Source of the DNA: Ceratodon purpureus
Taxonomy: Eukaryota; Streptophyta; Bryopsida; Pseudoditrichales; Ditrichaceae
Reading direction: 5' to 3'
DNA: 64,000 bases
NCBI GenBank assembly: GCA_014871385.1
Contig: CM026422.1
Span: forward strand, 13,324,081 to 13,388,080
Shown: positions 10,969 through 58,895 of the stretch, in pieces
Numbering within the stretch: the first letter of the stretch is position 1
How the letters are laid out: each line of letters starts with the position of its first letter
Position numbers and translations under genes: made by a program
The notes under the pieces: model-generated
Databases searched by the model: none
Told to the model about the DNA's origin: nothing
What the model saw: the letters and a program-made list of their open reading frames with translations, nothing else

Positions 10969-10976
10969 TAAATTAA

Positions 10977-11639: not shown

Positions 11640-13868
<2,229 letters not shown>

Positions 13869-21467: not shown

Positions 21468-23696
<2,229 letters not shown>

Positions 23697-36145: not shown

Positions 36146-36525
36146 TGTGGAAAGTGATTTCCACGGTTGACACACCGGAATACTAATTCCGGTAGGAAAA
36201 TGATAAAAAAATTAAAAATTTTATGTTAGAAATACGGAAGTACTAAGCCTATAAGTAAAACAACCGGTTAAGCCGGTCGGCTGAATAAATAAGTGACCGG
36301 AAGGCCAGCCGGGTGAGATCCGGTCGTCTACGGTGGAGGAGAGACGGGTACAGTCCATATGACAGAGCCCTGACCCGGCAGACTTAAGGATAACCACCAA
36401 AAGGTACAACGCACACGGGGATAATGGCTGCAACCATTAATACGCCGCCGGTCGCGACCGTCCAATGATGAGGGGCTACGACCGTCCGTCATGATGAGCT
36501 ACGAACGGGTGGGCGCGAGGGCAGG

Positions 36526-36533
36526 TATAAAAG
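36526..36533 (+). promoter_or_regulatory. TATA box of element A LTR
   Basis: TATAAAAG lies about 380 bp into the LTR and about 200 bp before the ATG of the LTR ORF. It implies transcription starting near 36,560, so U3 is short and the ORF lies in R or U5. Confidence 0.75.
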
Positions 36534-36734
36534 GAGGAAGGACCGCCATGCTCTTCCTTTCTCTTTGTCATTTTGTGGCACGACGGGTCCTTGCGCTCTA
36601 AGGCGGTGGGCGCAGTTAGGGTTAGACGGTAGGAGAGAGACGGTGAGACGGAAGTGTTTCCGTTAGGCGAGAGATTGTGGTGAAGATCGTGCGTGCAGGT
36701 GTTACCGGAGTGACGGAGAGGAGGACTTAGCAGA

Positions 36735-38603
36735 ATGGGTAGGAAAGGGAAGGAACCGGCGGCGGAAGGGCAGTCGTTCAGGGTACAACGGGTAATGCCG
36801 TTGATACCGGCCGGAGAGAAGGAGAAGGAGCTCCTCCGGACCGCCTTAGAGTCTATGGGTTGTGAGGTCCTACTGGACAAGGCATGGGGTTGGAAGCTTG
36901 CCCTTCCGGCCCAGGAGATCCTCGTCAAGAATCCTGAGAATCGAGGAACCATCCGGGGAGAGCCGGATAAGTGGTCGGCACAACTCTGGAGGGAGACGTA
37001 TGGTTTCAAGAACTCCGGCGGCGAGGTCTCGACGCCGGAGCCCCGGGACTTCATACATCAGTATCTCAAGGGGACCGGAGACCCGAGAGAAGGATGGGGG
37101 CTGGATGACATTGCGGATCCGGAGGCCCGGAGAGTAGTAGGGTTTATGAACCCTATTTTCCATCCGGAAAAGCCCAAACGGATCACCAACAAGTGGGCGT
37201 CCGTTTTCATTGGGGCCATGATCGGTGAATTCACGGTGGACTGGGGGGTCATGATGAAGACGATAGTCGACCGACAGGTGGCCAATCTCCGGAAGACCAA
37301 GAAGCAGGCCACCTGCCTTCCGTCTTTCCTCATTCACCTCTACCGTACTAAGGGACTGTTGACTGCTGAAGAGGTCCGGGAGTACGATATGCTCTTAAGC
37401 TATCAGCAGTTCGCTGAGCCGGAAGAAGTGTCCGACCAGGACGACGAGGATGATGTTATTGAGGTCTCCCCCACGCCGGCTAAGAGACCCCGTCCTAGCC
37501 CGGAAAAGGGACAGCCATCCGGATCACCTCGGACTCCCGCACCGGCCAAGCGAACCCTGAACACGGAGATCCAACAGCCCACCGGACCACCGGAGCACAC
37601 CGGAGATCCGTACCAGGACTTAGTTAACCTATCGGAGCAGGCAACGACATATGCCCGGTTCTTACAGTCGACTAGGAAGGCGGAGGGCCGGTTGGCTAGG
37701 GAGGTAATGATCCTTACGGGTTCGGACCGGTTGGAGGATTGCCTGAGCATTCTTCGCAAGCAGCGGGACTTGGCCGGTCTCCAGGAGAAGCACATGGACC
37801 GGCTGGCGAAGTACCGGGAGACGAATCGGAAGCTTGAAGAGGAGGTGCGTGATGCCCGGAAGGATTTCAATGACGCCCGTGACCGGGCAGTCGAGGCCAT
37901 CCGGTCGGTCGCCGAGATCAAGGCCACTTTAGCTCTTCCGGTAGATGTGGCCAATCAGTGCGCCGTTTACCAAGCTTTCCTGACCCGTCAACCGGATCCG
38001 ACTACGAAGAATATTATAAAGTTCATGCACGACCGGACGCAGGTGATGAGGGACACATGGATGATGATGAAGAACCTGGTGGAAATCCTCGGTTACGCAG
38101 AGGCCGGTCCGTCATCAGGGCCACCGGCAAATCAAGAGGATCCCAGACCACCGTCCCCAACCAGGGAACCGGCACCGGTGCCACCTCCAGCCTCTCCGAT
38201 ACGGTCGGCCATCCGGCCCGCCCAACAGGAGATAGGACACCCGCTGGAGGATCCTATTCCGGACACCTTGAGCAGTCTGCACACTCTACCCAACTTGGAT
38301 GGAGTCGAGACTGTTAACCCCGGAAACATTCCCTTGGAACCGGACCAGAGACCCCCACCGTTAGATTTTATACCGGTACAGGGATCTCCGGAAACGCTCC
38401 AGGTGGATCTCAGCGCAGTTCCGGTGGCGGCAAGATCTCCATCCCCGGCAGCTCAAGCAGAACGATCCCGGAAGTCCAGTGAACCGTCAGCATCTGCGGC
38501 TCCGGAAGAAGACCCCCCGTTGAAGAAACTGAAGCGGGTACAGAAGAAGGAACGGTTGGACGGAACCCGGCACAGTCCCCGGCTCGATAAGCACAAGGAG
38601 TAG
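36735..38603 (+). CDS. LTR-encoded protein of element A (622 aa), function unknown
   Basis: An uninterrupted ORF wholly inside the 5' LTR, upstream of the primer-binding site. The layout is a folded-looking N-terminal domain (about 1-225; TIRGEPDKWSAQLW, ETYGF, RRVVGFMNPIFHPEKPKRIT, LPSFLIHLYRTKGLLTAEE), an acidic stretch with DQDDEDD (about 235-250), and a Pro/basic linker. A coiled-coil-like charged segment (about 315-400) follows, then a Pro/Ser-rich part and a basic C-terminus (PLKKLKRVQKKE) that could be a nuclear signal. The N-terminal domain is homologous to the LTR ORF of element B, in the same order of blocks. I recognise no gag, pol, env or host domain. From the TATA box it would be the first ORF on the genomic RNA. 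Possible roles are RNA/DNA binding, particle function or silencing suppression; none is shown by the sequence. Confidence 0.85.
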   Translation: MGRKGKEPAAEGQSFRVQRVMPLIPAGEKEKELLRTALESMGCEVLLDKAWGWKLALPAQEILVKNPENRGTIRGEPDKWSAQLWRETYGFKNSGGEVSTPEPRDFIHQYLKGTGDPREGWGLDDIADPEARRVVGFMNPIFHPEKPKRITNKWASVFIGAMIGEFTVDWGVMMKTIVDRQVANLRKTKKQATCLPSFLIHLYRTKGLLTAEEVREYDMLLSYQQFAEPEEVSDQDDEDDVIEVSPTPAKRPRPSPEKGQPSGSPRTPAPAKRTLNTEIQQPTGPPEHTGDPYQDLVNLSEQATTYARFLQSTRKAEGRLAREVMILTGSDRLEDCLSILRKQRDLAGLQEKHMDRLAKYRETNRKLEEEVRDARKDFNDARDRAVEAIRSVAEIKATLALPVDVANQCAVYQAFLTRQPDPTTKNIIKFMHDRTQVMRDTWMMMKNLVEILGYAEAGPSSGPPANQEDPRPPSPTREPAPVPPPASPIRSAIRPAQQEIGHPLEDPIPDTLSSLHTLPNLDGVETVNPGNIPLEPDQRPPPLDFIPVQGSPETLQVDLSAVPVAARSPSPAAQAERSRKSSEPSASAAPEEDPPLKKLKRVQKKERLDGTRHSPRLDKHKE

Positions 38604-39669
38604 GGTTTAGGATAAGGACCGGATAAAATGGCAGCGACTAACGATGGGGCTCCAGTGCACCCGGCTGCCAATCCGGATAGATAACGGCAGTAACTAGGAA
38701 TAGAAGGCGGCCACCGGTCCGGGATTCCCGGATCCAAGATCCGGAATTTCTGGATCTCGGTGGGCCACTTGGTCGCTTTAGGAACCGATAGGTTTTAGTA
38801 TTTAAGATAGACGTTTTTCCAAGGCCGGGGCCTTGTTTTTGTACGCCGTTTTGTTGTTGCAATTGAGAATATACTTTTGGATTTGTTGTGTCAACCGGCT
38901 GCTGACGGGTCCGTTGCCGTATGGTTTGTGGTTCTATTGTCTTCAGTAGTGTTCCGGAGGAGTGTTGAACAGTAGGAAGGTCAGGAGAGCGCCCGGAGAG
39001 ACTGGGGAGGTGTCGAGCGTCGAGTGTTGACGGTTTCCAGTCCCGGAAGGAGCCCGTAGGGAAGGAGAGACGTATTGCAGCAGGGCTGGTAGTCTCAAGG
39101 ACACGGAGAGCCGTGTGTACACCGGGATCCGGAAACGGACCGGTCGCTTCCTGTAGATGGGATAAAAGCCGGATGTCCTACTGCGAACCAATCCGGAAGG
39201 GAGATAGTATAGTAGAATACTGTGCAGTCGTAAGGTGATGTCATTGTAGTAGGATTTCCGTATCCGTAACCGGCACTGAGTAGTTATCCGGACCGGTCCC
39301 TAGCCGTACGGAAGGATTATTACTCCACTTCTCGGGTGGTAGATAGGAACAGTGGGGTGTCCAGCCACTTTAAGTTACGGGACGGTGGAAAATCCAGCCA
39401 CTTTAAAGGATAGACGGATCAGTGGGAACCGGCCACTAGTCTAAAAAGCCGGAAAATAGGAACGAGGCAAAAACTACCGGATTCGTCCAACCGTCTGTAA
39501 GACGGAGTACGGTCGGACACTGGTGGTGATTTCCGTTAAAGTCTAAAAGAAAGAAAACTATAGGTCTTCGTGGGAACGAACACGGAGTGGTTTACTTTGG
39601 AGGGTAGTTAGTGTGAATTAAGTGCCTTCCGGAGGAATACGTATACCACGTCGTGCTACATGTGATTTT

Positions 39670-39689
39670 TGGCGCCGCTGCCGGGGATC
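39670..39689 (+). other. Primer-binding site of element A
   Basis: TGGCGCCGCTGCCGGGGATC starts 9 bp after the LTR. It is complementary to a tRNA 3' end ...CCCCGGCAGCGGCGCCA, one base different from the tRNA-Asp end known for plant Athila/Tat elements, as I recall it. Confidence 0.85.
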
Positions 39690-39754
39690 TATATGATTTT
39701 CTTTCTCCGGATTTCTACGGTTGTCACTAACCCAAGTCAGGTTGTAGAAAACGC

Positions 39755-41320
39755 ATGAATCCGAATTCTGAGCCGGAAGGAGTACGGAGGTCTAGTAGAA
39801 AGAAGAAGGGTGATCAGGAGACGGAAGCCAGACCATTCGTCACTACTAGAGCAGAATCCATTGAAGACGCAGATCAAGAGATAGCCGGGACTTCCGGATC
39901 CGGAGGTCAGGGTGGGACAGTACCACCCGGGCCGGTGACCGGAGGACCGGTAGCGGGTCTTCCTATGGCCCGGACGTTCTCCAGACTGAAGTATCGGAAG
40001 TTCAGGGGCGATGGCCGGGAGGACGTGGACGAATGGCTAAGCGAGTTCAACGCCACGGCTGCTGCCAACCAAGAGGACGAAGCAATCAAGTTACGGTTGT
40101 TCCAGGGATTACTCAAGAAGGAGGCACTCCAGTGGTACCAAGAGGAACCGGACAACGTGCGAAGGAGTTGGGGTTTGCTATCCGATGCCTTCCGGAGGGC
40201 CTTCCGGGAGGTAGGAGGAGAAGCCCGCACATTGGGAAAACTTAGTAAAATCCGGATGGAGCCGGAGGAGTCGGTCCGCCGGTACGGACAGAGGGTTAGG
40301 AGTTTAATTCATAAACTAAGTCCCGGAATTGCAAACAGTATCCAGGTAGAATGGTACGTCGCTGGGTTACCCGACCGGATGGGGTTCCAAGTAAGGCAGA
40401 CCCGGCCACAGACTTTACCGGAGGCCATGGAGGCCGCCCAGAACTATGAAAACTCCAAGCAGTCCATACGACATTACCGTAAGGCAGGGAAGACCTCCAG
40501 ACGTCTCCGAAAGGTCCGGAGGAGCCGGGATTCTAGTTTAGAATCCAGTGGATCCAGCTCCGAAGATAGCTCGGAAACCGGAAGCAGCAGCAGTGAGGAG
40601 GACCGCTCACGACAGAAGGCGTCAGGTAGCAAGGGCTACCGGAAGGACAAAGAACGGACGATAGTCCGAGTAAAGGAGGAATACCCATCGGAGAAACGGA
40701 TGATCAAAGATCTGGTGAACAGCATTGAAGAACTCAAAGTCCAGATGGCGGAAGAGAAGAAAGCACGGAAAGCGCTGCCCACCGTCCGGAACAATGTGTG
40801 GTGCACCAACTGCGGAAAGCCGGGACATTACAACCGGGAATGCCCACACGGAGCGCCCAAGAGAGTGCAGTTTGTGGATGAAGAGGGGTCAGTATTCTTT
40901 GCGGAACCTGCTTATGAAGAGGAGGAAGTGGAGATGCTACCGGTTTACCAGGTAAACCCGGCCTATGGCCGTGGACGGATGATGCAGCCGGTTATCAGAC
41001 CGCGACCCGGAATGGGCTATCCATCCGGTGGACATCCGGCCCCGCCGGCACGACCACCCGTCTCGGTGGAACGGCAGTTTGGATGCTGTTATATTTGTGG
41101 AGAAGCCGGTCATTATGCTAACAATTGTCCACACCGAGGAGGTCAAGGCGCACCGTTGGAACTTCCGTGTCAAAACTGTGGTCAGTACGGCCATAAGTCA
41201 CCCCAATGCCAACAACCGGTTAGACCTAGGGCTATCTATAAGCAAGTGGAAGAACCTCCCCGGGAGCGTACCGGGCTCAACTACGGTCACAAAGACGGGG
41301 TAGAGAATCCGCCAAATTGA
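39755..41320 (+). CDS. gag: Gag of element A
   Basis: 521 codons. The basic, Ser-rich N-terminus (RRSSRKKKG) is followed by a retrotransposon gag domain (about 70-230; YRKFRGDGREDVDEWLSEF, LQWYQEEPDN, VEWYVAGLPDRMGFQ). Next is a Ser/Glu-rich segment (about 250-300), then three CCHC zinc knuckles: CTNCGKPGHYNREC, CYICGEAGHYANNC and CQNCGQYGHKSPQC, the last about 50 residues before the end. It forms the particle and binds genomic RNA. It ends in AAT-TGA-CGG, and pol continues in the same frame, so Gag-Pol can arise by stop readthrough. It shares domain order with element B gag. Confidence 0.93.
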   Translation: MNPNSEPEGVRRSSRKKKGDQETEARPFVTTRAESIEDADQEIAGTSGSGGQGGTVPPGPVTGGPVAGLPMARTFSRLKYRKFRGDGREDVDEWLSEFNATAAANQEDEAIKLRLFQGLLKKEALQWYQEEPDNVRRSWGLLSDAFRRAFREVGGEARTLGKLSKIRMEPEESVRRYGQRVRSLIHKLSPGIANSIQVEWYVAGLPDRMGFQVRQTRPQTLPEAMEAAQNYENSKQSIRHYRKAGKTSRRLRKVRRSRDSSLESSGSSSEDSSETGSSSSEEDRSRQKASGSKGYRKDKERTIVRVKEEYPSEKRMIKDLVNSIEELKVQMAEEKKARKALPTVRNNVWCTNCGKPGHYNRECPHGAPKRVQFVDEEGSVFFAEPAYEEEEVEMLPVYQVNPAYGRGRMMQPVIRPRPGMGYPSGGHPAPPARPPVSVERQFGCCYICGEAGHYANNCPHRGGQGAPLELPCQNCGQYGHKSPQCQQPVRPRAIYKQVEEPPRERTGLNYGHKDGVENPPN

Positions 41321-41326
41321 CGGTTA
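41318..41326 (+). promoter_or_regulatory. Probable UGA readthrough site between gag and pol (element A)
   Basis: TGA-CGG-TTA follows the last gag codon and the frame stays open into pol. UGA-CGG is a recognised leaky context in plant RNA viruses such as furo- and tobraviruses. Element B has TGA-CGG-TTC at the equivalent place. Confidence 0.65.
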
Positions 41327-43306
41327 CCGGTGGAACCACGAGGAGAGACCGGCGTGGGTATCCATCAGGTCAGTTCGCGTAGTTCCACCCGGAGACAGGA
41401 TTCAGAAAAGAAGAAGAGGAAATCTGGTGTTCGGACCAGGTCACAGAGGAAAGAGAGTAGCCGACCGGAATCTTCAGAAACTTCCGGGGAATCAGAGAAG
41501 GAGGTGCCCCCGGAGACGGTCCCGGTTGAAAAAGGGGTCAAGACCCTACCAACTATGCCGGATATTGGACCGGAGGTAATTGCTGGGTTGCCTCAAGTAC
41601 AGGAGGGCCGGAAGGTGACATTCAGCGAGATTCCGGAAATTATCCAACCGGAGGTCCGGGCGAAAGCCGACAGGTACGACATCCTCCAGGATATTCAGGC
41701 CCAGCCGGCCAATGTCACCATAGGACAACTGTTACATGATAATCCTAATTATCAGAAGCAGGTTAAGTCCGGCTTAATCCGGACCCGTAAACGGAAGATT
41801 AAGCTGCCTTCCGTCGCAGTTAATTTTGCCGAGATGGAGGATTTCGGGGCTCCGGAAATAGCTGTGGAGATCGACGGATGCCTTATCCAGAAGGTACCGG
41901 TAGATGGAGGATCCGGAGTAAATCTACTACTGGAGAGTACGGCCAACGATTTAGGGTACACTGTCTTTGAGCCTACCAATCAGACTCTACGGATGGCAGA
42001 CCAGTCTCGAGTAGTACCAGTGGGAAAACTGTCGGCAGTACCGACAAAGATTTCCGGACTCACTTACCCGCTCAACTATTTGGTTATCCGGGTGGAGGAA
42101 GGAAATCCGTTTCCACTGTTACTCGGACGGCCGTGGCTATATCTAGCCGGAGTCAAGGTAAATTGGGCGAAGAAGGCTTTTACTTTCGGGGATCCGGCTG
42201 TTTTGCTATCGTGGAAACCGGAGCTCCATCTGGGGGAAACAAGTGAGACGGATGGTTACACTTCCGATTGGACAAGTTCAGAAAACTCGGATTCCCTGCA
42301 GTCATATCATGTACAAGAATTCCGGGAGGTATCAGAAGAGGATCTGGGATTCCGTAACCCGGTACCTGAACAGAAGCCGGATGGAACCGAAGTACCGAAC
42401 CGACCACCGGAAGGCAGGAAGGACGATGACCGGGCCCTAGGAGAAGCAAGCGTTCCGTTGACCTCCGAATGGATTAAAGGACAGTTCGCAGATGGGATAA
42501 TCAAAACAGGGACATCCGGGTCAAGGACCAGTGACTTACCCTGGTCAGCCCTTCCGGGGTCCGTAGAAACGGATGCTAGCGAACCGGTCAAGAATGTGGT
42601 AGCACCGGAAGATTATGAAGCAGTGAAGACGGAAACCGGTAGGACTTTCTACTTGGGAAAAGGACTGACGGACCGGGAGCGGGCACAGTATTTGGAACTG
42701 CTTACGGAATATGATGACGTCTTCGCCTGGCTTCCATCGGATCTGGTGGGTATACCGCCGGAATTGGGCGAACATCACATCGACCTAATGGAGGGAGCGG
42801 TTCCGGTTCGCCAAAGGCAGTACCGGCTCAACCCAAAGTACTCCATGATGGTGAAGGAGGAACTAGATAAACTGCTGGAAGCCGGTTTTATTTATCCAGT
42901 GAATAACTCCGAGTGGGTATCACCGATTGTAGTAGTACCAAAGAAAACGGGTCCGGATGGTAAAGTCAAAATCCGGGTATGTCAGGATTTCCGGAAGCTG
43001 AATGCAGCCACGAAGAAGGATCATTTCCCTTTACCCTTCATCGACATGGTACTCGATCACGTGGCCGGTCAGGAATGCTTCAGTTTTCTAGATGGGTTTT
43101 CCGGATACAATCAGGTGTCCATCCGGAAGGAGGACCAACTGAAAACTACTTTTACCACCGATTGGGGTACCTACGCTTTCAACCGGATGCCTTTCGGATT
43201 GTGCAATGCTCCCGGAACGTTTCAACGGTTGATGATGGACATATTTCAGGATTTCTTAAAACATTTCCTGGAAGTTTTCATTGACGACTTTGCGGTGTTC
43301 AGCCGG
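41321..43306 (+). pseudogene. pol: Pol of element A, 5' part (protease and reverse transcriptase), split
   Basis: Same frame as gag after the UGA. Basic leader (RSSTRRQDSEKKKRK), then aspartic protease with VPVDGGSGVNLL (about 190) and LLLGRPWLYLAGVKVNW, an acidic linker, then reverse transcriptase: WVSPIVVVPKKTG, KIRVCQDFRKLNAATKKDHFPLP, DGFSGYNQVS, FNRMPFGLCNAPGTFQRLM, and the catalytic FIDDFAVFSR. The frame is cut at 43,306 by element B; a short artificial extension runs into its LTR to 43,342. The remaining RT, RNase H and integrase follow at 56,677-58,884. Without the insertion the pol would be about 1,400 codons, similar to element B. Confidence 0.93.
43302..43306. repeat. 5-bp target-site duplication of element B (left)
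   Basis: GCCGG here and at 56,672-56,676, directly flanking the element B LTR ends. Confidence 0.9.
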
Positions 43307-46300
43307 TGTCGGAACACGGAAACGCAACTAACATCCGGATAGTGCTCTAATTGAGCGTAAACTTCCGTACTGTCACTAGGTTCCGAGTATCGTCCAGGGA
43401 TTCAATAGTGTTTCACCAAGTAGTTACTTCTAATCGTTCCGAGCCTTGCCACTGCTCGGATAGTGTCTTCGGAACGTAACTCCCGAACTATCTCCTTCTC
43501 TATTCTTCTCTCATTAGGTGTTTCGTCCACAAACCCCAACGTCTCGGATCAGTTACCGTCTCACAACTGTCCTAGAGTACTCTGGCCAGCAGGTCACGCA
43601 AACGATCCTCTCCGATCCGTGGGACTACAACGACAAACCAATCCGGATCTGGGAGAACCAGGATCCGATTATCCCTAGGCGACCCGTACCACGTTCCGAC
43701 TCCCCCTCTCACTATGCACGGAACCTCTTCAGAAGTTCAGGGAGCCCGACCAAGTAGTTCTTGATCCGCTTCGACCCTAGCGACGGCTATTCCGTATGAG
43801 GTTGATTTGGGGACGGAACAGTGAGGCTTCACTCCTACGACAATCCGCTAAATCTTTCCGCTCAATCCCATTTCCTTTCCGATTCGGGTCTCGTCGCAAC
43901 TCCCATCACCTTCCTATCCGAGCTACAGCGGAACTCTCATATCCTTCCCGGATCATTCACACTTAGCGGGAAATCACGCACAGTACTTACAAAACACAAA
44001 TACTTTACTGATAAGGAATATAGGGGGAAAACATGCAAAACGAAGACCCGGACCGCATCGCCTGCCCGGTTTAAGTAAGCAGGGGCTTCACAAAAGCGGC
44101 GGCGCCGGCAGTTCAACCAAAACCCTAATCCCTAACTACCTACCTAGAATTCTACTTTACGACTAGGACGGATCTCCCGATCCGGAATCTACTCCTATAA
44201 ATCCGGAAAGTTACGACAAGTGGCAGTGAGAGGAATCTATCACTTCTTTGTCTTCTTGTGGCTCTCCTGCTCGCGATCCTTCGACCTGGTCACCCGCGGC
44301 TCTGATCCGCCCGCCCCTGCTGCTCGTGCCGCCTTGCGCCTAGCACTCCGTTCCGCCTTTGACTCCCTCTCCTGAGCCTCCAAAGACAACCGGGTAACGA
44401 TCCGGGGCTTGGGAGAATTGGGCGATTTCGGAATCATATGTGCGGGGGGAGTTCCGGACGTCGGAGTCTGAGTTTCAGTTCCGGTGGTCCTGACCGGAGA
44501 GCTCCCATGCGTCTCTGAGTCGGACTCGGAAATCGTAATCGGCTCCTTCCTTTTCCGCAACCTCCGGAACTCTCCGACAGTGTTCTGAGGGGAACCTGCT
44601 GCTGGCGTTCCGGTGGGAGTAGGCGTCACCGTTCCGGTCTTGGCTGTGGGTGAAGGGGTCAATCCCCCCTCCTGAGTTACTCGGGTCCGTCCGGGTGGTG
44701 AAATAGGTCGTCCCCATTCCGGTCCCGCTACCTCCCCTCGGTAATTCGCAATGATCACTTCATCTCCGAGTCGTGGAAGAACATCCGGCGGCACGGTCCG
44801 AGTCACCTGTTCCGAAACCGTCCTCTCCTCGATCCGCCTCTCGGTGACTGTCGTTCCGGTCACCTCCACCTGTCCGGTGGGGATCGCGCAGCTCTGCTGG
44901 ACTGTACTGGTTCCGGGTGACACCGCCTGTGCTTGGACTTCCCGGATCGCCTCCGCAATCGTCCGATTGGTCATGGCGGCTTCTTCGGCCGTCATCTGTT
45001 CTGCTGCTTGGAGGTTACTCCCTATCGGGGTTCGGAACCCCACTCCGCGTGATTCTCCTACCACGGCACGAGAGGGCGATCCGGGGAGCGGAAGACCTCG
45101 GCCAGTGACTACGAGACTGGGACTTCCGGTGCTTGGATTGAGCAGCTGCCGGACCTTCTTCAGGATCATGTTCATCGAATGCTCGCATTTGGAGAGGATC
45201 TTGATGATCTTCTGCTTGTCCTCGAAATCAGCCGGCTGCACCACGTTCTCATCAAACAGCCGGGCCTTGTTGATTACCGCTCCCGAACTTCCCACCAACT
45301 TCCGAAGCTCCCCCAAAGTCTCCTCCTGCTCGGCGTGGAACTTTCGGATCTCGTCACTCTTTGCCGCCAGCTCCTTCGTCAACTCCTGTAACTGAAGCTC
45401 CAGCCGCTTCTTCTCACTCCGGAGAGTTGGGGCATCCTTCAACAACTCCACTTCTCGGATCACCTCTTCCGGTAAGCACCCTCCCAGCGCTGTACAGACC
45501 CTCCGGAACAGGGTTTCGATCCGATCATAAGAAGCTTGAGCCCGGTGAGTCTCCTCCCGAATCCCCCGAAACAGGTCCACCGGAAATCCCCGATCGGAAC
45601 TGACCTCTCTCCGTTCCGGATCTCCCCGGGCCGTAGACGGCTCCGCATGTCGTGACGCAGGCTGCTCCGATCGCGATCTGGACTGAGCCCTAGCAGCGCC
45701 AGGGTTCGGAACTTCCCTCGTATCGTCCTCATCCTCCGAGTCCGTTGTATCAGAGGGCTCACCTCGCGGATCGGGTTCCATTCCGGGCGGGATCTCCGAG
45801 AAGTTGAGGCAGTTCTTCGCGTGCGTATACGTCTCGTCCTCCTTATCGGTCAGCAAGTCATTCGCATGGTAAAGGTGAAAGAGGTAAGGGGAGAGTGGGG
45901 TCGGCTTCTTTCCGATCGTCGGAACCATCTTCTGCACCACTTCCGCCATGAGTGCAGCCCAATTCACCGGACGTTCTCCCGTATACGCTCCGAGGATGGT
46001 ATTCCCGACCGTAATGGTAACTTGTGCCGGTTTCTGCGGATACAGGATCGGAACGAGGAAGGCTAAGACCTGCCTCTGCCTCCTATCCTTGCAGGCGTCT
46101 ATCTCGTATCCATTGTTCCTATGGATCTTCCCGTGGAACCTATCCTGCACGTACTGATCCGTCCGGGTCGCCCAAAGGAGTCCCTTCTGTTCGAAACCGT
46201 AAGCTTCCGCCCACTGTTCCGCATTCCACAGCGTGGGCTTGCCTCGGATCGTTTTATCCCACCGGTTGTCCGGACCTTCCAGGACCTCCCTCACCATCAC

Positions 46301-46960
46301 CTCACTCTTTAGTAACCACGGCCGTGCCAGCAATCCCTCACACCTCATCCGAGTGAGGTCGGTGATCAGTTCCTCCATATCCGATTCCTTCACTGGAGTT
46401 CCGGGGCTAAGGACGCAACACTGTACGCGCGCCATCTCTACTCCTCACTTCTCTCCCTCTACGATCCGACAGCAAGAAACCCGGCAATCCAACTGCCGGT
46501 GAATCGGAAAAGACAAGGACACCTCACCGCTCTTTCACTCTCTACTCCCAGTTCGCAAAAAGGAACTCCAAACCCTAACACCCTCGCTTATATACCCCAG
46601 GCATAATAAACGCTGTGGCGGCCCGTAATTGCAGCCGCCAACGTACCGGGGTAAACGCCTATCCGAGTCATGATGACTTCCGCGTCGCTTCGGATCCTTG
46701 ACGCGGTTACAGTAACGGTCAGTACTCGGATCGTCCACCCGTTCCGTATCTTATCTTCCGAGTTTCCGGAATCCAGGTTCCGGGAACACTTCCTACGTTA
46801 ACTGTTTTAACGTTTCTGGAGTATCCGATTTGCGTTAACTACTAATGCTGCTAGTGTCTGGCCAGTTTTTACCTAGTTAACCAAAAAAAATGAAAAATAA
46901 ATGGAATACTTACGCCGGCTGGGGCTCTTCCGGTTTATTCTGAGTTTCTCGGATCCCACA
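43307..46960 (-). repeat. 3' LTR of element B, contains a 731-codon ORF
   Basis: Appears identical to 53,018-56,671. It carries the same ORF (44,240-46,435) and a TATATAAG box at about 46,594-46,587 on the minus strand. Short ORFs on its plus strand are shadows. Confidence 0.95.
44240..46435 (-). CDS. LTR-encoded protein of element B (731 aa), 3' LTR copy
   Basis: Same protein as 53,951-56,146; see that entry for layout. This copy lies downstream of pol on the genomic RNA only if transcripts run through the 3' LTR. It would also be expressed from the 3' LTR's own TATA box (about 150 nt upstream of its ATG), in which case transcription would continue leftward into element A's antisense strand. 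Confidence 0.85.
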   Translation of the reverse strand: MARVQCCVLSPGTPVKESDMEELITDLTRMRCEGLLARPWLLKSEVMVREVLEGPDNRWDKTIRGKPTLWNAEQWAEAYGFEQKGLLWATRTDQYVQDRFHGKIHRNNGYEIDACKDRRQRQVLAFLVPILYPQKPAQVTITVGNTILGAYTGERPVNWAALMAEVVQKMVPTIGKKPTPLSPYLFHLYHANDLLTDKEDETYTHAKNCLNFSEIPPGMEPDPRGEPSDTTDSEDEDDTREVPNPGAARAQSRSRSEQPASRHAEPSTARGDPERREVSSDRGFPVDLFRGIREETHRAQASYDRIETLFRRVCTALGGCLPEEVIREVELLKDAPTLRSEKKRLELQLQELTKELAAKSDEIRKFHAEQEETLGELRKLVGSSGAVINKARLFDENVVQPADFEDKQKIIKILSKCEHSMNMILKKVRQLLNPSTGSPSLVVTGRGLPLPGSPSRAVVGESRGVGFRTPIGSNLQAAEQMTAEEAAMTNRTIAEAIREVQAQAVSPGTSTVQQSCAIPTGQVEVTGTTVTERRIEERTVSEQVTRTVPPDVLPRLGDEVIIANYRGEVAGPEWGRPISPPGRTRVTQEGGLTPSPTAKTGTVTPTPTGTPAAGSPQNTVGEFRRLRKRKEPITISESDSETHGSSPVRTTGTETQTPTSGTPPAHMIPKSPNSPKPRIVTRLSLEAQERESKAERSARRKAARAAGAGGSEPRVTRSKDREQESHKKTKK

Positions 46961-46996
46961 TTACCCCATTTTCAAATGTGAGAGTCCCCGCGAACA

Positions 46997-49900
46997 CTAA
47001 TCTTCTTCCTCCCCTTCCGGGCTTTCGCTTCCTTCGGTGTCTGTGAACTCCTCAGGGTTGTAATTCTTCACTCGGGATCCGTTCACCCGGGTTTCGAAGC
47101 TATTTCCCTGGAGGTCCGCCAGTTGTAACGATCCGTTCTCAAAGATCCGCGTAACCCGGTAAGGTCCCATCCATCTCGTATGTAACTTTCCCGGAAACTT
47201 TTGGTGCCGATTATCGTATAAGAGCACCAAGCCTCCTTCTATCACCTTATTGTCCTTAGGAATTCTTTTGTCGTAGATCTCCTTACGTTTTGCCTGGACA
47301 TCTACAGCCTGCTGTAGGGCGCCTCTCCTGACTTCTTCCAGATCCTGTAATGCCACGATCCGGTACCCCGGATCCTCGACTCTCGTCCCGTGACGGGCAG
47401 CCATAACCCGTAAGGTTTCTACCTCCAGTTCCACTCCGTGAACTGCGGATTGTCCAAAGACTAGGAAGAACGGACTCTTACCCATGGTTTTCTTCTCACT
47501 GGTATTGTAGGCGTGTACAGCTGAAGGGAGCTTCCGATCCCAATCCGTCTTATGAGCCGAGACCATCTTGTTCAGAATCTTTCCGACGATGCCATTGGCT
47601 CGCTCCGTCAACCCATTCGCTTTCGGATTATAAGGGGTCGTCTTCCGGTGTTTGATGAGATACCGTTCCGTGATATTGATGATGACATCGTTCAGGAAAT
47701 GTTTTCCCCGGTCACTCACCAGTTCTAACGGATGTCCAAATCTCATCATTATTTCTTCAAAGAGAAATGTGGCTGCGGCTGCGGCGTCATTCTTCACCGT
47801 TGCCCTTGCCTCTACCCATCTGGTCGCATAATCCGTAGCCAGGATAATGTATCTCCTCTTCCGGGCTGTGACCGGATTGATCGGTCCGATAAAGTCTATC
47901 CCCCATTTTTCAAACGGAGCCAAGGGAATAATGGGAGTGAGGGGCCAGTGGTTTCGGAACGAAGGTGCCCCGGTTCTTTGACACTGGTCACACTGCCCTA
48001 CGAATTCCTTCACGTCTCGGGAGAGGTAAGGCCACCAATATCCGGCTGATCGGATTCGCTTGATGGTTGTCTCCGAGGCGAAATGGCCGCCCGAGGGTCC
48101 GGCGTGTAAGGCCCTCATGACCTGCCTTCTTTCGGATTCCTCGAGGCACCTCCGTAATACATCATCCGGTCCCATCCGGAAAAGTACTCCTCGGATCAGT
48201 GTGAAAGGGGCTACTGTATTCTGAAATACCATCTTCTCCTCCCGCGTAAATCCCTCCGGGTACCTCCGTTGTGTTAAATACTGGATAATCTCTGAATAAT
48301 CGGAGTTCTCCGTTCCGGAAATGTGAAATACCTCCGCCTCTTCCGGAAACTCATCCGGGAACGTGGCGGTGATGTCCGAGACTGCTTCCGGGCCTCGCAT
48401 CCTTGACAGGTAGTCCGCGTTGGCATTGGCCTTACCCGGTTTCACTACCACCTCGTAGTTGAATTCCTGGAGCAGCAAGATCCACCGTGCAATACGCCCT
48501 GAGAGATCCGGTTTGTTCACCAAATACTTCAGGGAGTCATGATCCGTATGGAACACGATCTTGTATCCGAGAAGGTAGTGTCGGAACTTCTTGCAGGCGT
48601 ATACTACCGCCAAGGCTTCCCGTTCAGTGGTAGTATATTTCCGTTCCGCAAGGCTCATCTGCCTGCTAGCATAATAGATCGGATGCTCCTTCCGATCCTC
48701 CCCTTGCTGCCACAGAATCGCCCCTAGGCACCACCCGGAAGCGTCGATTGTCACATGGAATTCCTTCGACCAATCCGGTGCTGATAGGATCGGAGCGGTG
48801 GTCAGGGCCTTCTTCAATTCCTCGAACGCTTGCTGTCTCCGTTCCGTCCACAAAAACTCTTCTTCCTTCTTCAACAGTTCCGTTAATGGGGCTGCCAATT
48901 TGGCATACGCAATAATAAACCTCCTGTAGTATCCGACGCATCCTAGGAATCCCCGGACCTCTCGGACGTTGGTGGGAGACACTAGAATAAGGATAGCTCG
49001 TACCTTATCCGAATCGACTTCCAACCCGTTCCGACTTACGATGTGCCCGAGAAGAATTCCGGAAATCATCCCCATAAAACATTTTCCGGGGTGTAATTTC
49101 AGTCCGGTTTCCCTGCACCTCTGGAAGGTCCTTCGGAGGTACTCGAGATGTTCCTTCCACTTACTGAACACCGCGAAGTCATCGATGAAGACTTCTAGAA
49201 AATGCCTCAAGAAATCTCGGAAAATATCCACCATCAGCCTTTGGAATGTTCCGGGAGCGTTACACAGTCCGAAGGGCATTCTGTTGAAGGCGAACGTCCC
49301 CCATTCCGTGGTGAAGGTCGTCTTCAGCTGATCTTCTTCCCGGATCGATACCTGGTTGTAACCGGAAAATCCATCAAGAAAGCTGTAGCACTCCTGCCCT
49401 GCCACGTGGTCGAGGATAATGTCCGTAAAAGGTAACGGAAAGTAATCCTTCTTTGTGGCCGCATTCAGTTTCCGGAAATCTTGACAAACTCGGATCTTGA
49501 CTTTCCCATCCGAGCCAACTTTCTTCGGAACGACGACTATGGGTGATACCCACTCGGAGTTATTCACCGGATAAATGAATCCAGCCTTCAGGAGGCTATC
49601 GATCTCCTCCTTCACCATCAGAGAATACTTCGGGTTGAGCCTGTACTGACGTTGTCTGACCGGAACGGATCCGTCAACCAAGTCAATGTGATGCTGGCCT
49701 AGTTCCGGAGGTATTCCCTTGAGGTCGGATGGTGACCAAGCGAATACGTCTAAATATTCCTTTAGTAAATCCACATACTCCTTTCTCTGCTCCTTGCTCA
49801 TGCTTCGCCCTAGCAGAAATGTCTTTCCGGGGGCTACTTCCACCTTCTCATAGTCGGACGGTTTCACAACGTTCTTGACTCGCTCCGATTCCTGTTCCTC

Positions 49901-51148
49901 TCCCTGATCCGTCCATGCGCTCCACACCCGGACAGGGGTGTCCGGATCGAGACCCATGGCGGGCAGGTTTCCCTCCTCGACCTGTTGTCGGAACCATTCG
50001 GCTGAGAGTGGAACACTTCCTTCTCCGAGAGAGCGATCCTCCGGTACCGGGAATTTCACGTGCTCCGATGATGGTTGGGGTTGCTCACTGATCGGATTAT
50101 GAAATCGGAAGTCATCCTCGGTAACTTCCGAGAACTGATTCACGAAATAACTAAATACTTCGTCATCCTCCTCTTCCGGGTCGGACCAATCAGAAGTATA
50201 CCCATCCGAGCCACTGGTTTCCCCTAGATATCCATCCATCTTCCACGGAATCCGCTGATTGGTTTTTCCGAGTACGAACTCCTTGGCTCCCCAATCAACG
50301 AGGACTCGTGCCATGTATAGCCAGGGTCTTCCCAACAACATCGGAAAGGGACGGCCCGTACTAACTCGGATTATCACGTAATTCAAGAGGTATGTTACCT
50401 CTCCGATCGTGGTCGGAACCTGGGACAACCTTCCCACGGGTTTAACTCTAGATTGATCCGCCATTCGTAACACCTGATCGGTGGATTCGAACGAGGTGTA
50501 TCCGAGTTCAAAGGCCGTATCTTCCAGCATCAGGTTCACACCGGATCCTCCATCTACCGGAACTTTCGGTATAGCACATCCTTCTATTAGCACCGTCAGT
50601 TCCGGGGCTCCGTGATCCTCAACCTGTAAGAAGTTAGTAGCTACAGACGGAAGCTTCACCCCTCGGCGCCTCCGCTTCGTCCATGCCTCTCGGATTACCT
50701 TCTGGTAATTCACATTGTCATGGAGCAACTGTCCAATCGTGACATTTGCCTTGAGGGATTTGATGTCCCCCAGAATGTCATACTCGTCCACTCTGGGATC
50801 GGAAGGAATAACCACCGGAACGTCATCAAACCGGACCGAAGGCTTGGTGATCTTCCGGGCAAGGGGATCCGTGAGTTCTTTCCGAACTTCCTCACTGATA
50901 TCTTCCGGGAGGTTCCCTCCTTCCACCCCATTTTCCGCTCTTGGACGGTCATTTTCTTCTGGTAAAGCTCTGGTTACCGTAGAGGGTTCGGATCCTGAAT
51001 CCGAATCCACTCTCCTGGATCTTACCCTCCTCCTGGTCTTCCGGGATTTCGGAAGCTCCGGTTCCTGGGCACGCTCTCTAGCGGAACTACGGGTTGATAC
51101 TCTGTGTACTGGTACTTCCGCGCCCTCCTGTAGTTCCGTCACGAACCG
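46997..51148 (-). CDS. pol: Pol of element B (protease, RT, RNase H, integrase)
   Basis: About 1,380 codons in one frame, following gag after UGA. A basic leader (RSSARERAQ) is followed by aspartic protease VPVDGGSGVNLM (about 195-205) with LLGRPWLYMARVLVDW. Reverse transcriptase spans about 500-720 (WVSPIVVVPKKVG, FRKLNAATKKDYFPLP, FIDDFAVFSKW). RNase H is at about 790-920 (FHVTIDASGWCLGAILW, HTDHDSLKYLVN). Integrase has an HHCC finger (HAGPSGGHFAS...CDQCQ) and a D-D-E core (WGIDFIGPIN, DYATRWVEAR, LVSDRGKHFL, YNPKANGLTERANG), then a GPYRV module. No chromodomain. All catalytic blocks are present, so the enzyme is probably active. Confidence 0.95.
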   Translation of the reverse strand, partial: RFVTELQEGAEVPVHRVSTRSSARERAQEPELPKSRKTRRRVRSRRVDSDSGSEPSTVTRALPEENDRPRAENGVEGGNLPEDISEEVRKELTDPLARKITKPSVRFDDVPVVIPSDPRVDEYDILGDIKSLKANVTIGQLLHDNVNYQKVIREAWTKRRRRGVKLPSVATNFLQVEDHGAPELTVLIEGCAIPKVPVDGGSGVNLMLEDTAFELGYTSFESTDQVLRMADQSRVKPVGRLSQVPTTIGEVTYLLNYVIIRVSTGRPFPMLLGRPWLYMARVLVDWGAKEFVLGKTNQRIPWKMDGYLGETSGSDGYTSDWSDPEEEDDEVFSYFVNQFSEVTEDDFRFHNPISEQPQPSSEHVKFPVPEDRSLGEGSVPLSAEWFRQQVEEGNLPAMGLDPDTPVRVWSAWTDQGEEQESERVKNVVKPSDYEKVEVAPGKTFLLGRSMSKEQRKEYVDLLKEYLDVFAWSPSDLKGIPPELGQHHIDLVDGSVPVRQRQYRLNPKYSLMVKEEIDSLLKAGFIYPVNNSEWVSPIVVVPKKVGSDGKVKIRVCQDFRKLNAATKKDYFPLPFTDIILDHVAGQECYSFLDGFSGYNQVSIREEDQLKTTFTTEWGTFAFNRMPFGLCNAPGTFQRLMVDIFRDFLRHFLEVFIDDFAVFSKWKEHLEYLRRTFQRCRETGLKLHPGKCFMGMISGILLGHIVSRNGLEVDSDKVRAILILVSPTNVREVRGFLGCVGYYRRFIIAYAKLAAPLTELLKKEEEFLWTERRQQAFEELKKALTTAPILSAPDWSKEFHVTIDASGWCLGAILWQQGEDRKEHPIYYASRQMSLAERKYTTTEREALAVVYACKKFRHYLLGYKIVFHTDHDSLKYLVNKPDLSGRIARWILLLQEFNYEVVVKPGKANANADYLSRMRGPEAVSDITATFPDEFPEEAEVFHISGTENSDYSEIIQYLTQRRYPEGFTREEKMVFQNTVAPFTLIRGVLFRMGPDDVLRRCLEESERRQVMRALHAGPSGGHFASETTIKRIRSAGYWWPYLSRDVKEFVGQCDQCQRTGAPSFRNHWPLTPIIPLAPFEKWGIDFIGPINPVTARKRRYIILATDYATRWVEARATVKNDAAAAATFLFEEIMMRFGHPLELVSDRGKHFLNDVIINITERYLIKHRKTTPYNPKANGLTERANGIVGKILNKMVSAHKTDWDRKLPSAVHAYNTSEKKTMGKSPFFLVFGQSAVHGVELEVETLRVMAARHGTRVEDPGYRIVALQDLEEVRRGALQQAVDVQAKRKEIYDKRIPKDNKVIEGGLVLLYDNRHQKFPGKLHTRWMGPYRVTRIFENGSLQLADLQGNSFETRVNGSRVKNYNPEEFTDTEGSESPEGEEED

Positions 51149-51151
51149 TCA
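51143..51151 (-). promoter_or_regulatory. Probable UGA readthrough site between gag and pol (element B)
   Basis: TGA-CGG-TTC on the minus strand separates gag and pol, which share a frame. Same arrangement and same hexanucleotide TGACGG as element A. Confidence 0.65.
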
Positions 51152-52978
51152 TTTGTCCGGATTCTCTATCCCACCCGAGTGACCGTAGTTTAGCCCAGTC
51201 ATCTCTCTCGGAGGAACCTCCACCTGTTTGAAAGTCGGGCGGGGTTGTGCCGGTTTGGCACAATGAGGAGCCGTATGACCGTACTCTCCGCAATTTTGGC
51301 ACGGAAGGATCCGCGGTGCTCCCTGCCCTTGTCGCTCAAACGGACAGTTAGGTGCGTAATGATCCGGGCTTCCACAGTTAAAGCAGTACCCGTGGGTCGG
51401 CTTCGGGTACATCGGCCTACCCGGAACGTTCTGGGGGATCCGGTATCCGGCGGGAGGACGGGCTATCTGGATCGGAGCCTTGCCTCGTCCGTAAGTGGTC
51501 TGAACCTGATACACAGGTTGGTACTCCTCCATCTGAAATTCCTCCTCTTCCGGATAGGCAAAGTAGACCTCTTCTTCCGGATGGACGTAGTGAATTCGTT
51601 TCTGGCGGGGTTCAGTACACTCCGGAGGATAATGTCCTTGCTTCCCGCAGTTAGCACACCACACATTAGCTCTGCTGGTTGGAATCATCTTACGAGGTTT
51701 CCGATTCTCGGAAAGGTGGACGTTGAGTTCGGCAATCGATTCTCGGATCTCCTTCATCTCCTTCATGACCTTCCGAGAATCGTCATCCTCCACCTTCACC
51801 TTGATCAACTCTCGGTTCCGTCTTGGCCGGGTGTCTCTACTGGAGCCGCCTCGGCGTTTCGAGGCTCCCCTGGAGTCCTCTTCCGACTGATCGGAACTGG
51901 ATGAAGTGGAATCGCTCTTACTGGTAGAGTCGGAATCTTCCGAAGAGGACTCGTGCCTCCGCCGGCGCTCTCTCTCCTTCCGGATCTTCTTACCCCGCTT
52001 CTCGGTATGCTTCAGAGACTTCCGTAGAGATTGGGCCGAGTTCTCATAGTTCTGAGCCGCTTCCACGGCTTCCTGAAGTGTGGCGGGACGGGTTTGTCGG
52101 ATCTGAAACCCCATCTCCTCTGGAAATCCGGCGACAAACCATTCCACTTGTACACTCGGAGCTATGGCCGTAGTGAGTTTCTGTATGAGCGCCTTTACTC
52201 TCTGACTGTACTTTCGTACTGACTCGGAAGATCTCATCGTCATACGACTCAGCTTTCCGAGTGCGCGAGCCTCTCCTCCGGCCTCACGGAACGTACGTCG
52301 GAACAAGGTCACGAAACTGGTCCAGTCGTTACGTGTGCGTTCCGGAACGTCTTGGTACCACTGTAGAGCTTCTCCCTTCAGAAGACCTTGGAATATCCTT
52401 CTCTTCGCGTCCGGATCTTCCTGATTGGCCAGAGCAATGGATTCGAACTCACAGAGCCATTCGTCCACGTCTTGACTTCCGTCTCCTTTGAATCGGTTGT
52501 ACTTCAGTCGGGTAGAGGGTGCCATCGGATTGTCTTCCTCGTCTTCTTCCTCTTCCTCGGTCTCCTCTTCTACTCCGGCGTCGGCTCCGACTTCGTCAGC
52601 TACGACCTCTTCTTCTTCCGGATCTGGAGCTGTACCTGCTCCGGCTGTGGAGGTTCCGGCCAACGACACCACGATTACGTCTCCTTCTCGTTCTACAGCA
52701 GTCTGGATCCGGGGAAGTAGATTCGTTCCCGGTAGATCGTGTACCAAAACTCTTCCCCTCTTCTGTAGCAACCGAGTGGATCTTCTTCCCCCTAACTCTT
52801 CCGGTTGCGCCCCAACCATGGAAGAGATTGGGAATTCTTCTTCCGATTCCTCGGAAGGCAGGATCTGCACGTAAGACTTCCGCCTACCGCATATCCACCT
52901 AAATGAAGCCTTCACGGTCTGACTCCACTTTTCTTCAAATCTGCGCTCACGTATCTCCCGAGTATCCACCTGGATCAC
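51149..52978 (-). CDS. gag: Gag of element B
   Basis: The open frame starts at a GTG; the likely start is the ATG at 52,819 (MVGAQPEELGGRRS), leaving about 555 codons. Acidic N-terminal part, gag domain (YNRFKGDGSQDVDEWLCEF, ALQWYQDVPER, VEWFVAGFPEEMGFQ), Ser/Asp and basic linker, then three CCHC knuckles: CANCGKQGHYPPEC, CFNCGSPDHYAPNC and CQNCGEYGHTAPHC. It ends AAA-TGA-CGG with pol in the same frame. Block for block it is homologous to element A gag. Confidence 0.93.
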   Translation of the reverse strand: MIQVDTREIRERRFEEKWSQTVKASFRWICGRRKSYVQILPSEESEEEFPISSMVGAQPEELGGRRSTRLLQKRGRVLVHDLPGTNLLPRIQTAVEREGDVIVVSLAGTSTAGAGTAPDPEEEEVVADEVGADAGVEEETEEEEEDEEDNPMAPSTRLKYNRFKGDGSQDVDEWLCEFESIALANQEDPDAKRRIFQGLLKGEALQWYQDVPERTRNDWTSFVTLFRRTFREAGGEARALGKLSRMTMRSSESVRKYSQRVKALIQKLTTAIAPSVQVEWFVAGFPEEMGFQIRQTRPATLQEAVEAAQNYENSAQSLRKSLKHTEKRGKKIRKERERRRRHESSSEDSDSTSKSDSTSSSSDQSEEDSRGASKRRGGSSRDTRPRRNRELIKVKVEDDDSRKVMKEMKEIRESIAELNVHLSENRKPRKMIPTSRANVWCANCGKQGHYPPECTEPRQKRIHYVHPEEEVYFAYPEEEEFQMEEYQPVYQVQTTYGRGKAPIQIARPPAGYRIPQNVPGRPMYPKPTHGYCFNCGSPDHYAPNCPFERQGQGAPRILPCQNCGEYGHTAPHCAKPAQPRPTFKQVEVPPREMTGLNYGHSGGIENPDK

Positions 52979-52989
52979 AGCTTATCGAA

Positions 52990-53007
52990 TCCCCGGCAGC
53001 GGCGCCA
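52990..53007 (-). other. Primer-binding site of element B
   Basis: TGGCGCCGCTGCCGGGGA on the minus strand, 10 bp inside the 5' LTR; identical over 18 nt to that of element A, so both use the same tRNA primer. Confidence 0.88.
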
Positions 53008-53950
53008 GATTTTTACGTGTCGGAACACGGAAACGCAACTAACATCCGGATAGTGCTCTAATTGAGCGTAAACTTCCGTACTGTCACTAGGTTCCGAGTA
53101 TCGTCCAGGGATTCAATAGTGTTTCACCAAGTAGTTACTTCTAATCGTTCCGAGCCTTGCCACTGCTCGGATAGTGTCTTCGGAACGTAACTCCCGAACT
53201 ATCTCCTTCTCTATTCTTCTCTCATTAGGTGTTTCGTCCACAAACCCCAACGTCTCGGATCAGTTACCGTCTCACAACTGTCCTAGAGTACTCTGGCCAG
53301 CAGGTCACGCAAACGATCCTCTCCGATCCGTGGGACTACAACGACAAACCAATCCGGATCTGGGAGAACCAGGATCCGATTATCCCTAGGCGACCCGTAC
53401 CACGTTCCGACTCCCCCTCTCACTATGCACGGAACCTCTTCAGAAGTTCAGGGAGCCCGACCAAGTAGTTCTTGATCCGCTTCGACCCTAGCGACGGCTA
53501 TTCCGTATGAGGTTGATTTGGGGACGGAACAGTGAGGCTTCACTCCTACGACAATCCGCTAAATCTTTCCGCTCAATCCCATTTCCTTTCCGATTCGGGT
53601 CTCGTCGCAACTCCCATCACCTTCCTATCCGAGCTACAGCGGAACTCTCATATCCTTCCCGGATCATTCACACTTAGCGGGAAATCACGCACAGTACTTA
53701 CAAAACACAAATACTTTACTGATAAGGAATATAGGGGGAAAACATGCAAAACGAAGACCCGGACCGCATCGCCTGCCCGGTTTAAGTAAGCAGGGGCTTC
53801 ACAAAAGCGGCGGCGCCGGCAGTTCAACCAAAACCCTAATCCCTAACTACCTACCTAGAATTCTACTTTACGACTAGGACGGATCTCCCGATCCGGAATC
53901 TACTCCTATAAATCCGGAAAGTTACGACAAGTGGCAGTGAGAGGAATCTA

Positions 53951-56146: not shown

Positions 56147-56297
56147 CTCTACTCCTCACTTCTCTCCCTCTACGATCCGACAGCAAGAAACCCGGCAATC
56201 CAACTGCCGGTGAATCGGAAAAGACAAGGACACCTCACCGCTCTTTCACTCTCTACTCCCAGTTCGCAAAAAGGAACTCCAAACCCTAACACCCTCG

Positions 56298-56305
56298 CTT
56301 ATATA
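56298..56305 (-). promoter_or_regulatory. TATA box of element B LTR
   Basis: TATATAAG on the minus strand, about 150 nt upstream of the LTR ORF ATG (56,146) and about 365 bp inside the LTR. Confidence 0.7.
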
Positions 56306-56676
56306 CCCCAGGCATAATAAACGCTGTGGCGGCCCGTAATTGCAGCCGCCAACGTACCGGGGTAAACGCCTATCCGAGTCATGATGACTTCCGCGTCGCT
56401 TCGGATCCTTGACGCGGTTACAGTAACGGTCAGTACTCGGATCGTCCACCCGTTCCGTATCTTATCTTCCGAGTTTCCGGAATCCAGGTTCCGGGAACAC
56501 TTCCTACGTTAACTGTTTTAACGTTTCTGGAGTATCCGATTTGCGTTAACTACTAATGCTGCTAGTGTCTGGCCAGTTTTTACCTAGTTAACCAAAAAAA
56601 ATGAAAAATAAATGGAATACTTACGCCGGCTGGGGCTCTTCCGGTTTATTCTGAGTTTCTCGGATCCCACAGCCGG

Positions 56677-58884: not shown

Positions 58885-58895
58885 AAAAGGGGTAA

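Follow-up and report, generated by a model that had tools for sequence, protein, structure and literature searches.

The window analysed here, a 64,000-nucleotide stretch of the Ceratodon purpureus genome, contains two nested Ty3/gypsy retrotransposons, element A (36146-62410, + strand) and element B (43307-56671, − strand), the latter lying inside the pol gene of A. Their parts are as follows, the primer-binding sites (PBS) and purine tracts being located by sequence.

36146..39660, + strand: 5' LTR of A, 3515 bp, from self-BLAST; TG..CA ends, target-site duplication (TSD) GAGGT
39670..39688, + strand: primer-binding site of A
39755..41320, + strand: gag of A, ending in UGA then CGG
41321..43306, + strand: first part of pol of A, in frame with gag and broken by B; reverse transcriptase (RT) by Pfam, protease by eye
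56677..58884, + strand: second part of pol of A, with RNase H and integrase; first ATG at 56767
58883..58895, + strand: purine tract of A
58896..62410, + strand: 3' LTR of A, from self-BLAST
53018..56671, − strand: 5' LTR of B, 3654 bp; TSD GCCGG
52989..53007, − strand: primer-binding site of B
51149..52978, − strand: gag of B, ending in UGA then CGG; probable ATG at codon 54, by comparison with A
46997..51148, − strand: pol of B, in frame with gag
46961..46973, − strand: purine tract of B
43307..46960, − strand: 3' LTR of B

By self-BLAST, the LTR pair of A showed 4 mismatches over 3515 bp, and the LTRs of B (43306-46960 and 53017-56671, 3655 bp) were 100% identical; one shared base was trimmed from the latter, moving the LTR starts to 43307 and 53018 and giving LTRs of 3654 bp with the TSD GCCGG. 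Both elements have TG...CA ends and 5-bp target duplications (GAGGT for A and GCCGG for B), the same PBS, TGGCGCCGCTGCCGGGGAT, 9-10 nt internal to the 5' LTR, and a purine tract (PPT) preceding the 3' LTR. Gag, RT, RNase H and integrase were detected by Pfam in A and B; no protease model was among the Pfam hits for either element, and a protease motif could be discerned by eye only. The RT-RH-INT order, together with the LTRs, PBS, PPT and 5-bp TSD, identifies both as Ty3/gypsy elements, with 51% identity between their gag proteins and 59-65% between their pol proteins. A PBS of the tRNA-Asp type would fit an Athila-like (OTA) placement. A chromodomain, the mark of plant chromoviruses, was absent from both pol C-termini in a Pfam scan at E ≤ 1. 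No second RNase H family was found in a Pfam scan of either pol, although a very divergent copy could escape such a scan; in the accessible text of one survey, a second, archaeal-type RNase H sets the Tat elements apart (PMC6317226).

At the gag/pol junction (41318-41400, + strand, and 51151-51069, − strand), a single frame is split by UGA CGG UU in both elements. This is a stop-readthrough context known from plant RNA viruses. A stem-loop following the gag stop codon was strong in A (z −4.15, with 0 of 200 shuffles as good) and not significant in B (z −1.04, 32 of 200).

In addition to gag and pol, each element carries one long ORF within its LTRs, flanked by candidate transcription signals.

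36735..38603, + strand: LTR ORF A, 622 aa, inside the 5' LTR of A
59485-61353, + strand: copy of LTR ORF A in the 3' LTR, with one in-frame stop at codon 170
53951..56146, − strand: LTR ORF B, 5' LTR copy, 731 aa
44240..46435, − strand: LTR ORF B, 3' LTR copy, 731 aa, identical to the 5' copy
36526..36534, + strand: TATA box of the A LTR, TATAAAAGG, at LTR offset 381
56297..56305, − strand: TATA box of the B LTR, TATATAAGC, at LTR offset 367
38833..38892, + strand: most T-rich 60 nt of the A LTR, at offset 2688, 230 nt after the ORF stop
53696..53755, − strand: most T-rich 60 nt of the B LTR, at offset 2917, 196 nt after the ORF stop

The LTR limits, TSDs, PBS and PPT agree in placing these ORFs of 622 and 731 codons wholly inside the LTRs of A and B, as the original prediction had claimed. 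Its further claim, that the ORF is copied at both ends of the element, holds in full for B; the 3' copy of A is present but interrupted. The ORF lengths cannot be attributed to chance, because the longest M-to-stop ORF in 1000 first-order Markov simulations per LTR was at most 350 codons for A and 388 for B. With codon usage trained on gag and pol of the two elements, the correct frame scored best in all 13 hundred-codon blocks (6/6 in A and 7/7 in B, the last 22 and 31 codons, respectively, falling outside the scored blocks), and LTR sequence past the ORF scored negative in every frame.

The ORF start codon lies at LTR offset 590 in A and 526 in B. Spacing between the TATA box and the ATG was 208-211 nt in 37 of 38 ORF-A loci (30 distinct places), the remaining locus being without the start motif, and in the same 37 no ATG occurred between TATA+30 and the start codon; B's leader likewise contains none. 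Transcription of A would be expected to start ~30 nt past the TATA box, and the T-rich stretches probably mark the poly(A) region of each LTR, in which case R would span the ORF. None of the listed poly(A)-signal variants was found between TATA and ATG in either LTR, save A's TATA motif itself, which is weak evidence because plant signals are loose. TATA box, ORF and T-rich stretch follow in the same order at similar offsets in both LTRs, although the LTR DNA of A and B could not be aligned (best blastn E 0.13). An antisense ORF of 214 codons (44751-45395 and 54462-55106, + strand) overlaps LTR ORF B in both LTRs.

The two LTR ORF proteins are related over their N-terminal parts. BLASTP gave 33% identity over 217 columns (E = 5e-31), and the N-terminal ~215 residues scored 281 against a best of 58 among 500 shuffles. 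Direct comparison of the coiled-coil parts gave a score of 36, reached by 130 of 500 shuffles, and of the tails 56, reached by 69 of 500. With the low-complexity filter off, tblastn of A against B2, a further lineage described below, extended across the coiled coil (A 20-445, 27%, E 4e-32), and with the filter on it covered A 20-226 only. Of the common protein layout originally proposed, the N-terminal domain thus stands by homology and the coiled coil appears homologous less firmly, through the intermediate B2 alone; for the acidic run, Pro-rich part and basic tail, the likeness between A and B is one of composition only.

The 362-Mb assembly (151 contigs) was searched with both ORFs. ORF A as DNA gave 40 scored matches of 563 candidates (99-100% identical), its N-terminal domain gave 1399 candidates, of which the best 150 were scored (91-100% identical), and ORF B gave 1473, of which again the best 150 were scored (97-100% identical). 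Because only the best-scoring matches were taken, these copy counts are lower bounds and are biased to intact copies. Among the 150 scored ORF-A matches, 48 of 68 consecutive same-contig gaps below 40 kb were 9.37-9.38 kb, which is the LTR-to-LTR distance of A without B; for the 150 scored ORF-B matches, 54 of 60 such gaps were 9.66-9.89 kb. The N-terminal match was stop-free in 140 of 150 (ORF A) and 147 of 150 (ORF B) of these best-scoring, and so intact-biased, matches. When 22 ORF-A copies were taken with no open-frame filter (20 of the 40 listed places plus the window's two), 15 had no premature stop and 7 had one. A 110.5-Mb contig, ~30% of the assembly and possibly a sex chromosome, contains 32 of the 150 scored A copies and 52 of the 150 scored B copies.

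More distant relatives were sought with degenerate codon patterns for the motif W.A..W.E.YG, from which the codons used by A and B were excluded. These gave 8 and 36 places (two shared) and none with reversed-pattern controls; many of the 36 are near-A variants, and two of the first eight are probably chance matches, having in-frame stops within the motif by eye. Among the fetched loci, A2 (L077/L078) is 77% identical to A over A 1-210; B2 (L085) is 71% identical to B over B 1-730 and open for 618 codons; Dp (L087) is 63% and 54% identical to A in two pieces, and D (L086) 42% and 39%, also in two pieces; E (L088) is 39% identical to B and 27% to A; and F (L089) is 35% identical to B and 33% to A. 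Every fetched copy of A2, D, Dp, E and F is broken. When six N-terminal sequences were aligned, the columns without variation were W, A, W, E, Y, G, F and one more G, of which only F and the last G are independent, since the search pattern demanded the first six. The protein family is thus larger than first proposed, comprising eight fetched lineages (A, A2, B, B2, D, Dp, E and F) within a single genome.

Several of these loci appear to be LTRs in their own right. From first to last base, B's LTR aligns with the B2 locus, and A's LTR with Dp and D. No PBS (within 4 mismatches), gag or pol was found in the flanks of B2, Dp and D (~1.35-1.45 kb before and 1.65-2 kb after), so that all three look like solo LTRs. 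The 5-bp flanks are identical at B2 (AGACA) and Dp (GTACA), and match at 2 of 5 positions at D. In the B2 solo LTR the motif used detects no TATAWA box, and the ORF is cut short at codon 618, so this copy may be dead. At the A2 locus L078, an integrase end is followed by the LTR start and then the ORF. E lies near part of a B-type LTR, and F is surrounded by LTR-like repeats ~3.1 kb apart (L089, L094, L099). LTR residence of a long ORF is thus shown for four lineages or more (A, B, B2 and Dp): many A and B copies have it in each of their two LTRs, and solo LTRs contain it too. The same is very probable for A2 and D and possible for E and F. Further LTR-located homologues, whose absence would have spoken against the original prediction, exist within the host genome, two of them in solo LTRs with perfect 5-bp TSDs. 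An alternative is that the LTR limits were called wrongly and the ORF belongs to the internal region, where the accessible part of a review puts the extra ORFs of plant elements (PMC7264820). We regard this as refuted, given that direct repeats of 3.5 kb bound the elements and are accompanied by TSD, PBS and PPT, that matches occur in pairs at fixed spacing, and that solo LTRs with perfect TSDs contain the ORF.

For analysis of selection, variation within family A was considered alongside divergence between subfamilies. The variants counted among the 22 ORF-A copies are 68 synonymous, 54 nonsynonymous and 6 that introduce stops, and pN/pS is 0.249. Among 19 stop-free copies (14 diverged copies, four stop-free copies and the window's 5' copy; largest dS 0.117), median pairwise dN/dS was 0.36, taken across the 109 pairs (out of 171) whose dS exceeded 0.05. 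The 14 diverged copies were picked from stop-free matches with open frames of at least 628, so that this dN/dS covers open copies only and the fact that all 14 are open is no evidence in itself. Fixing omega at 1 cost ~40 lnL units (−4437.2 versus −4397.3) at the best of six kappa values, and the exact cost may be somewhat smaller because the best kappa was the largest tried. By region, dN/dS in ORF A was 0.34 for the N-terminal domain, 0.32 for residues 231-290, 0.25 for the coiled coil and 0.65 for the tail.

Direct comparison of A with B gave a likelihood-ratio value of 54.0 versus 47.3, the latter being the largest of 40 codon-shuffled controls, a narrow margin. Third codon positions between A and B look saturated, which makes direct A-B dN/dS uninformative, and unsaturated subfamily pairs were therefore used. 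A versus A2 gave dN/dS of 0.30 and 0.37 at dS of 0.38 and 0.42, and B versus B2 gave 0.27 over 617 codons at dS of 0.64 (N-terminal domain 0.24, residues 217-284 0.31, coiled coil 0.12 and tail 0.51). Purifying selection on the LTR ORF protein is therefore seen in all three comparisons (within family A, A with A2, and B with B2), and dN/dS, named in the original prediction as one check, lies well below 1, at about 0.25-0.37 for dS of 0.05-0.64. As regional dN/dS is low in the N-terminal domain and coiled coil, these parts are constrained as protein, and the tail (0.51-0.65) is loosely constrained.

These values also bear on a passenger hypothesis, in which the ORF would be a captured, selfish gene of no function that stays open only through fast amplification of a few recent source copies. 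Amplification does appear recent, because the 300 scored A and B matches are 91-100% identical to the query (best matches only), and both the weak constraint on the tail and the premature stops in 7 of 22 unfiltered ORF-A copies would suit a passenger. Against these stand dN/dS of 0.27-0.37 between subfamilies at dS of 0.38-0.64, and an N-terminal domain that is still recognisable between A and B despite the saturated-looking third positions, and we consider a passenger very unlikely.

Searches of Pfam, NCBIfam and PDB sequences gave no significant relative of the LTR ORF proteins, the best Pfam match (E 0.012) being below its cut-off; sub-threshold hits in the three libraries were mostly of coiled-coil type and fell mostly within the coiled coil. 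The domains of known plant eORF families, PF10536, PF04195 and PF03078, were absent from the Pfam hits of full ORFs A and B and of the N-terminal domains of A, B, A2 and B2. The domain may resemble PF20167, a putative plant transposon domain; the A and B domains gave no hit to it at a limit of E = 10, HMMER filters dropping most matches above about 0.1. Relatives were likewise absent from IMG/VR (queried with ORF A, ORF B, an N-terminal alignment of two sequences, and pol both from B alone and as an alignment) and from prokaryote genome contigs scanned with pol. AlphaFold models of the N-terminal domain from two sequences were weak (pLDDT 54 and 49), and a Foldseek search with one of them, which gave no match at E ≤ 0.001, was discarded. 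A domain derived from a domesticated or duplicated gag was rejected, hhalign against the elements' own gag giving probabilities of 0.1% and 0.2%. The protein family proposed as unrecognised is accordingly one that is selected, LTR-located and has no significant match in the family libraries searched.

We favour, with a probability of roughly 60%, a reading in which the LTR contains a self-contained gene whose product would be an accessory regulator with a coiled coil. Transcription would start just past the LTR TATA box and polyadenylation would occur in the T-rich stretch ~200 nt past the stop codon, yielding a short monocistronic mRNA; either LTR of an element could be its source, and perhaps a solo LTR as well. 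Read-through of the poly(A) site in the 5' LTR would produce genomic RNA with the ORF at both ends, and the amount of accessory protein relative to genomic RNA would then depend on poly(A) choice in that LTR. More tentatively, the protein may oligomerise through its coiled coil and serve as an accessory regulator, its N-terminal domain being conserved and its basic tail evolving fast. It would most likely work in trans, on expression of the element itself or on the fate of its RNA, and not as part of the structural or enzymatic core. None of the functions suggested earlier (RNA binding, silencing evasion or particle function) is specifically indicated by the results here. In a bolder version, possible but at odds well short of even, the LTR would be a mobile gene with promoter, ORF and terminator all in the repeat, solo LTRs would serve as trans helpers for full-length relatives, and the poly(A) decision would switch between accessory mRNA and genomic RNA; each insertion would then bring two copies, and every solo LTR produced by recombination would keep a source of the protein, a helper outlasting the deletion of its element.

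Translation of gag behind an upstream ORF of 620-730 codons is left unaccounted for by the LTR-gene model and counts against it; splicing around the LTR ORF, splicing into a fusion and reinitiation are candidate routes. In the first, a donor in the leader would be joined to an acceptor before gag, giving alternative mRNAs from one promoter. CGGTGAG occurs between TATA and ATG in both leaders (GTGAG at LTR offsets 498 in A and 434 in B), but GTRAG sites are frequent in both LTRs (A has 5, B has 11), so the two matches may be chance; such splicing seems rather unlikely, and is compatible with the main reading, altering only how gag is made. In the second, the LTR ORF protein would form the N-terminal part of a spliced, matrix-like Gag fusion, in which an intron running from the ORF to an acceptor between PBS and gag would bring the two frames together; this would also solve the translation of gag. 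B's gag frame does stay open over the 53 codons that precede its probable ATG, and A has, by eye, a branch-point-like CACTAAC and a CAG acceptor-like site at 39725-39740, between the PBS and the gag ATG. Each LTR ORF nevertheless ends in its own stop codon, and there is no profile similarity between LTR protein and gag (hhalign 0.1% and 0.2%, as above), though a fusion partner need not resemble gag; we judge the fusion unlikely.

Outside plants, the superantigen of MMTV is encoded by an animal retrovirus gene inside the LTR and copied at both ends. The sag gene lies in U3 and its product is a membrane superantigen, whereas the ORF described here lies downstream of the LTR TATA box, presumably in R, and no relation is implied. 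Foamy virus transactivator genes extend into the LTR and offer, as an analogy only, what may be the nearest functional parallel to the favoured regulator role.

Among plant Ty3/gypsy elements, extra ORFs (eORF/aORF) include those of Ogre with a plant mobile domain, Retand with Transposase_28 and Athila with ORF-1, in the accessible parts of a survey and a review (PMC6317226, PMC7264820). The LTR ORF resembles these, as far as those parts describe them, in being a non-gag-pol protein that occurs in many copies of a Ty3/gypsy lineage and evolves faster than pol. The consulted text of the review places extra ORFs in the internal region (PMC7264820), and that of the survey classifies eORFs solely as lying 5' or 3' of the polyprotein (PMC6317226), so that LTR ORFs could sit unnamed within its eORF counts. 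Unlike the eORFs and aORFs in these texts (PMC7264820, PMC6317226), the ORF here lies wholly inside the LTR, which gives two per element and a presence in solo LTRs, and the named domains are unmatched. The rice elements Retrosat2, RIRE3 and RIRE8 have an ORF0 upstream of the gag-pol ORF, and Retrosat2 an R region of 2023 bp, in the part of the report at hand (PMC3485330). By that description, the only basis of comparison, the rice elements are like A and B in that their LTRs are roughly 3 kb or longer, R is long and an extra ORF that evolves fast precedes gag, and differ in that ORF0 is not stated there to be LTR-located. An ORF inside a plant LTR is not described in the accessible portions of PMC6317226, PMC11963269, PMC3485330 and PMC7264820, and no plant element with an LTR ORF was apparent from titles and the openings of abstracts, a scope in which subscription literature is mostly absent and an earlier report is possible.

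LTRs are normally treated as non-coding control DNA, from which a selected protein gene is a departure, and pipelines looking only between LTRs would miss such a gene. A selected LTR gene would mean that solo LTRs can be protein-coding, and the effect of a copy on its relatives would be independent of gag-pol. The LTR-ORF system is both abundant and recent in this one genome.

Elsewhere in the window, a gag-protease ORF of a more distant gypsy element (6843-8942, − strand) is ~25-35% like the gag and protease region of A and B, and two ORFs resembling CACTA-type transposon proteins, by eye only, lie at 32808-35147 (− strand). A 4.8-kb inverted duplication (10362-15172 and 20212-24974) is 98.2% identical between its arms. 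Each arm contains an ORF of 732 codons, DEAH-helicase-like by eye, and short tandem repeats with a period of ~96 bp lie inside the duplication at 14000-14304 and 21080-21336.
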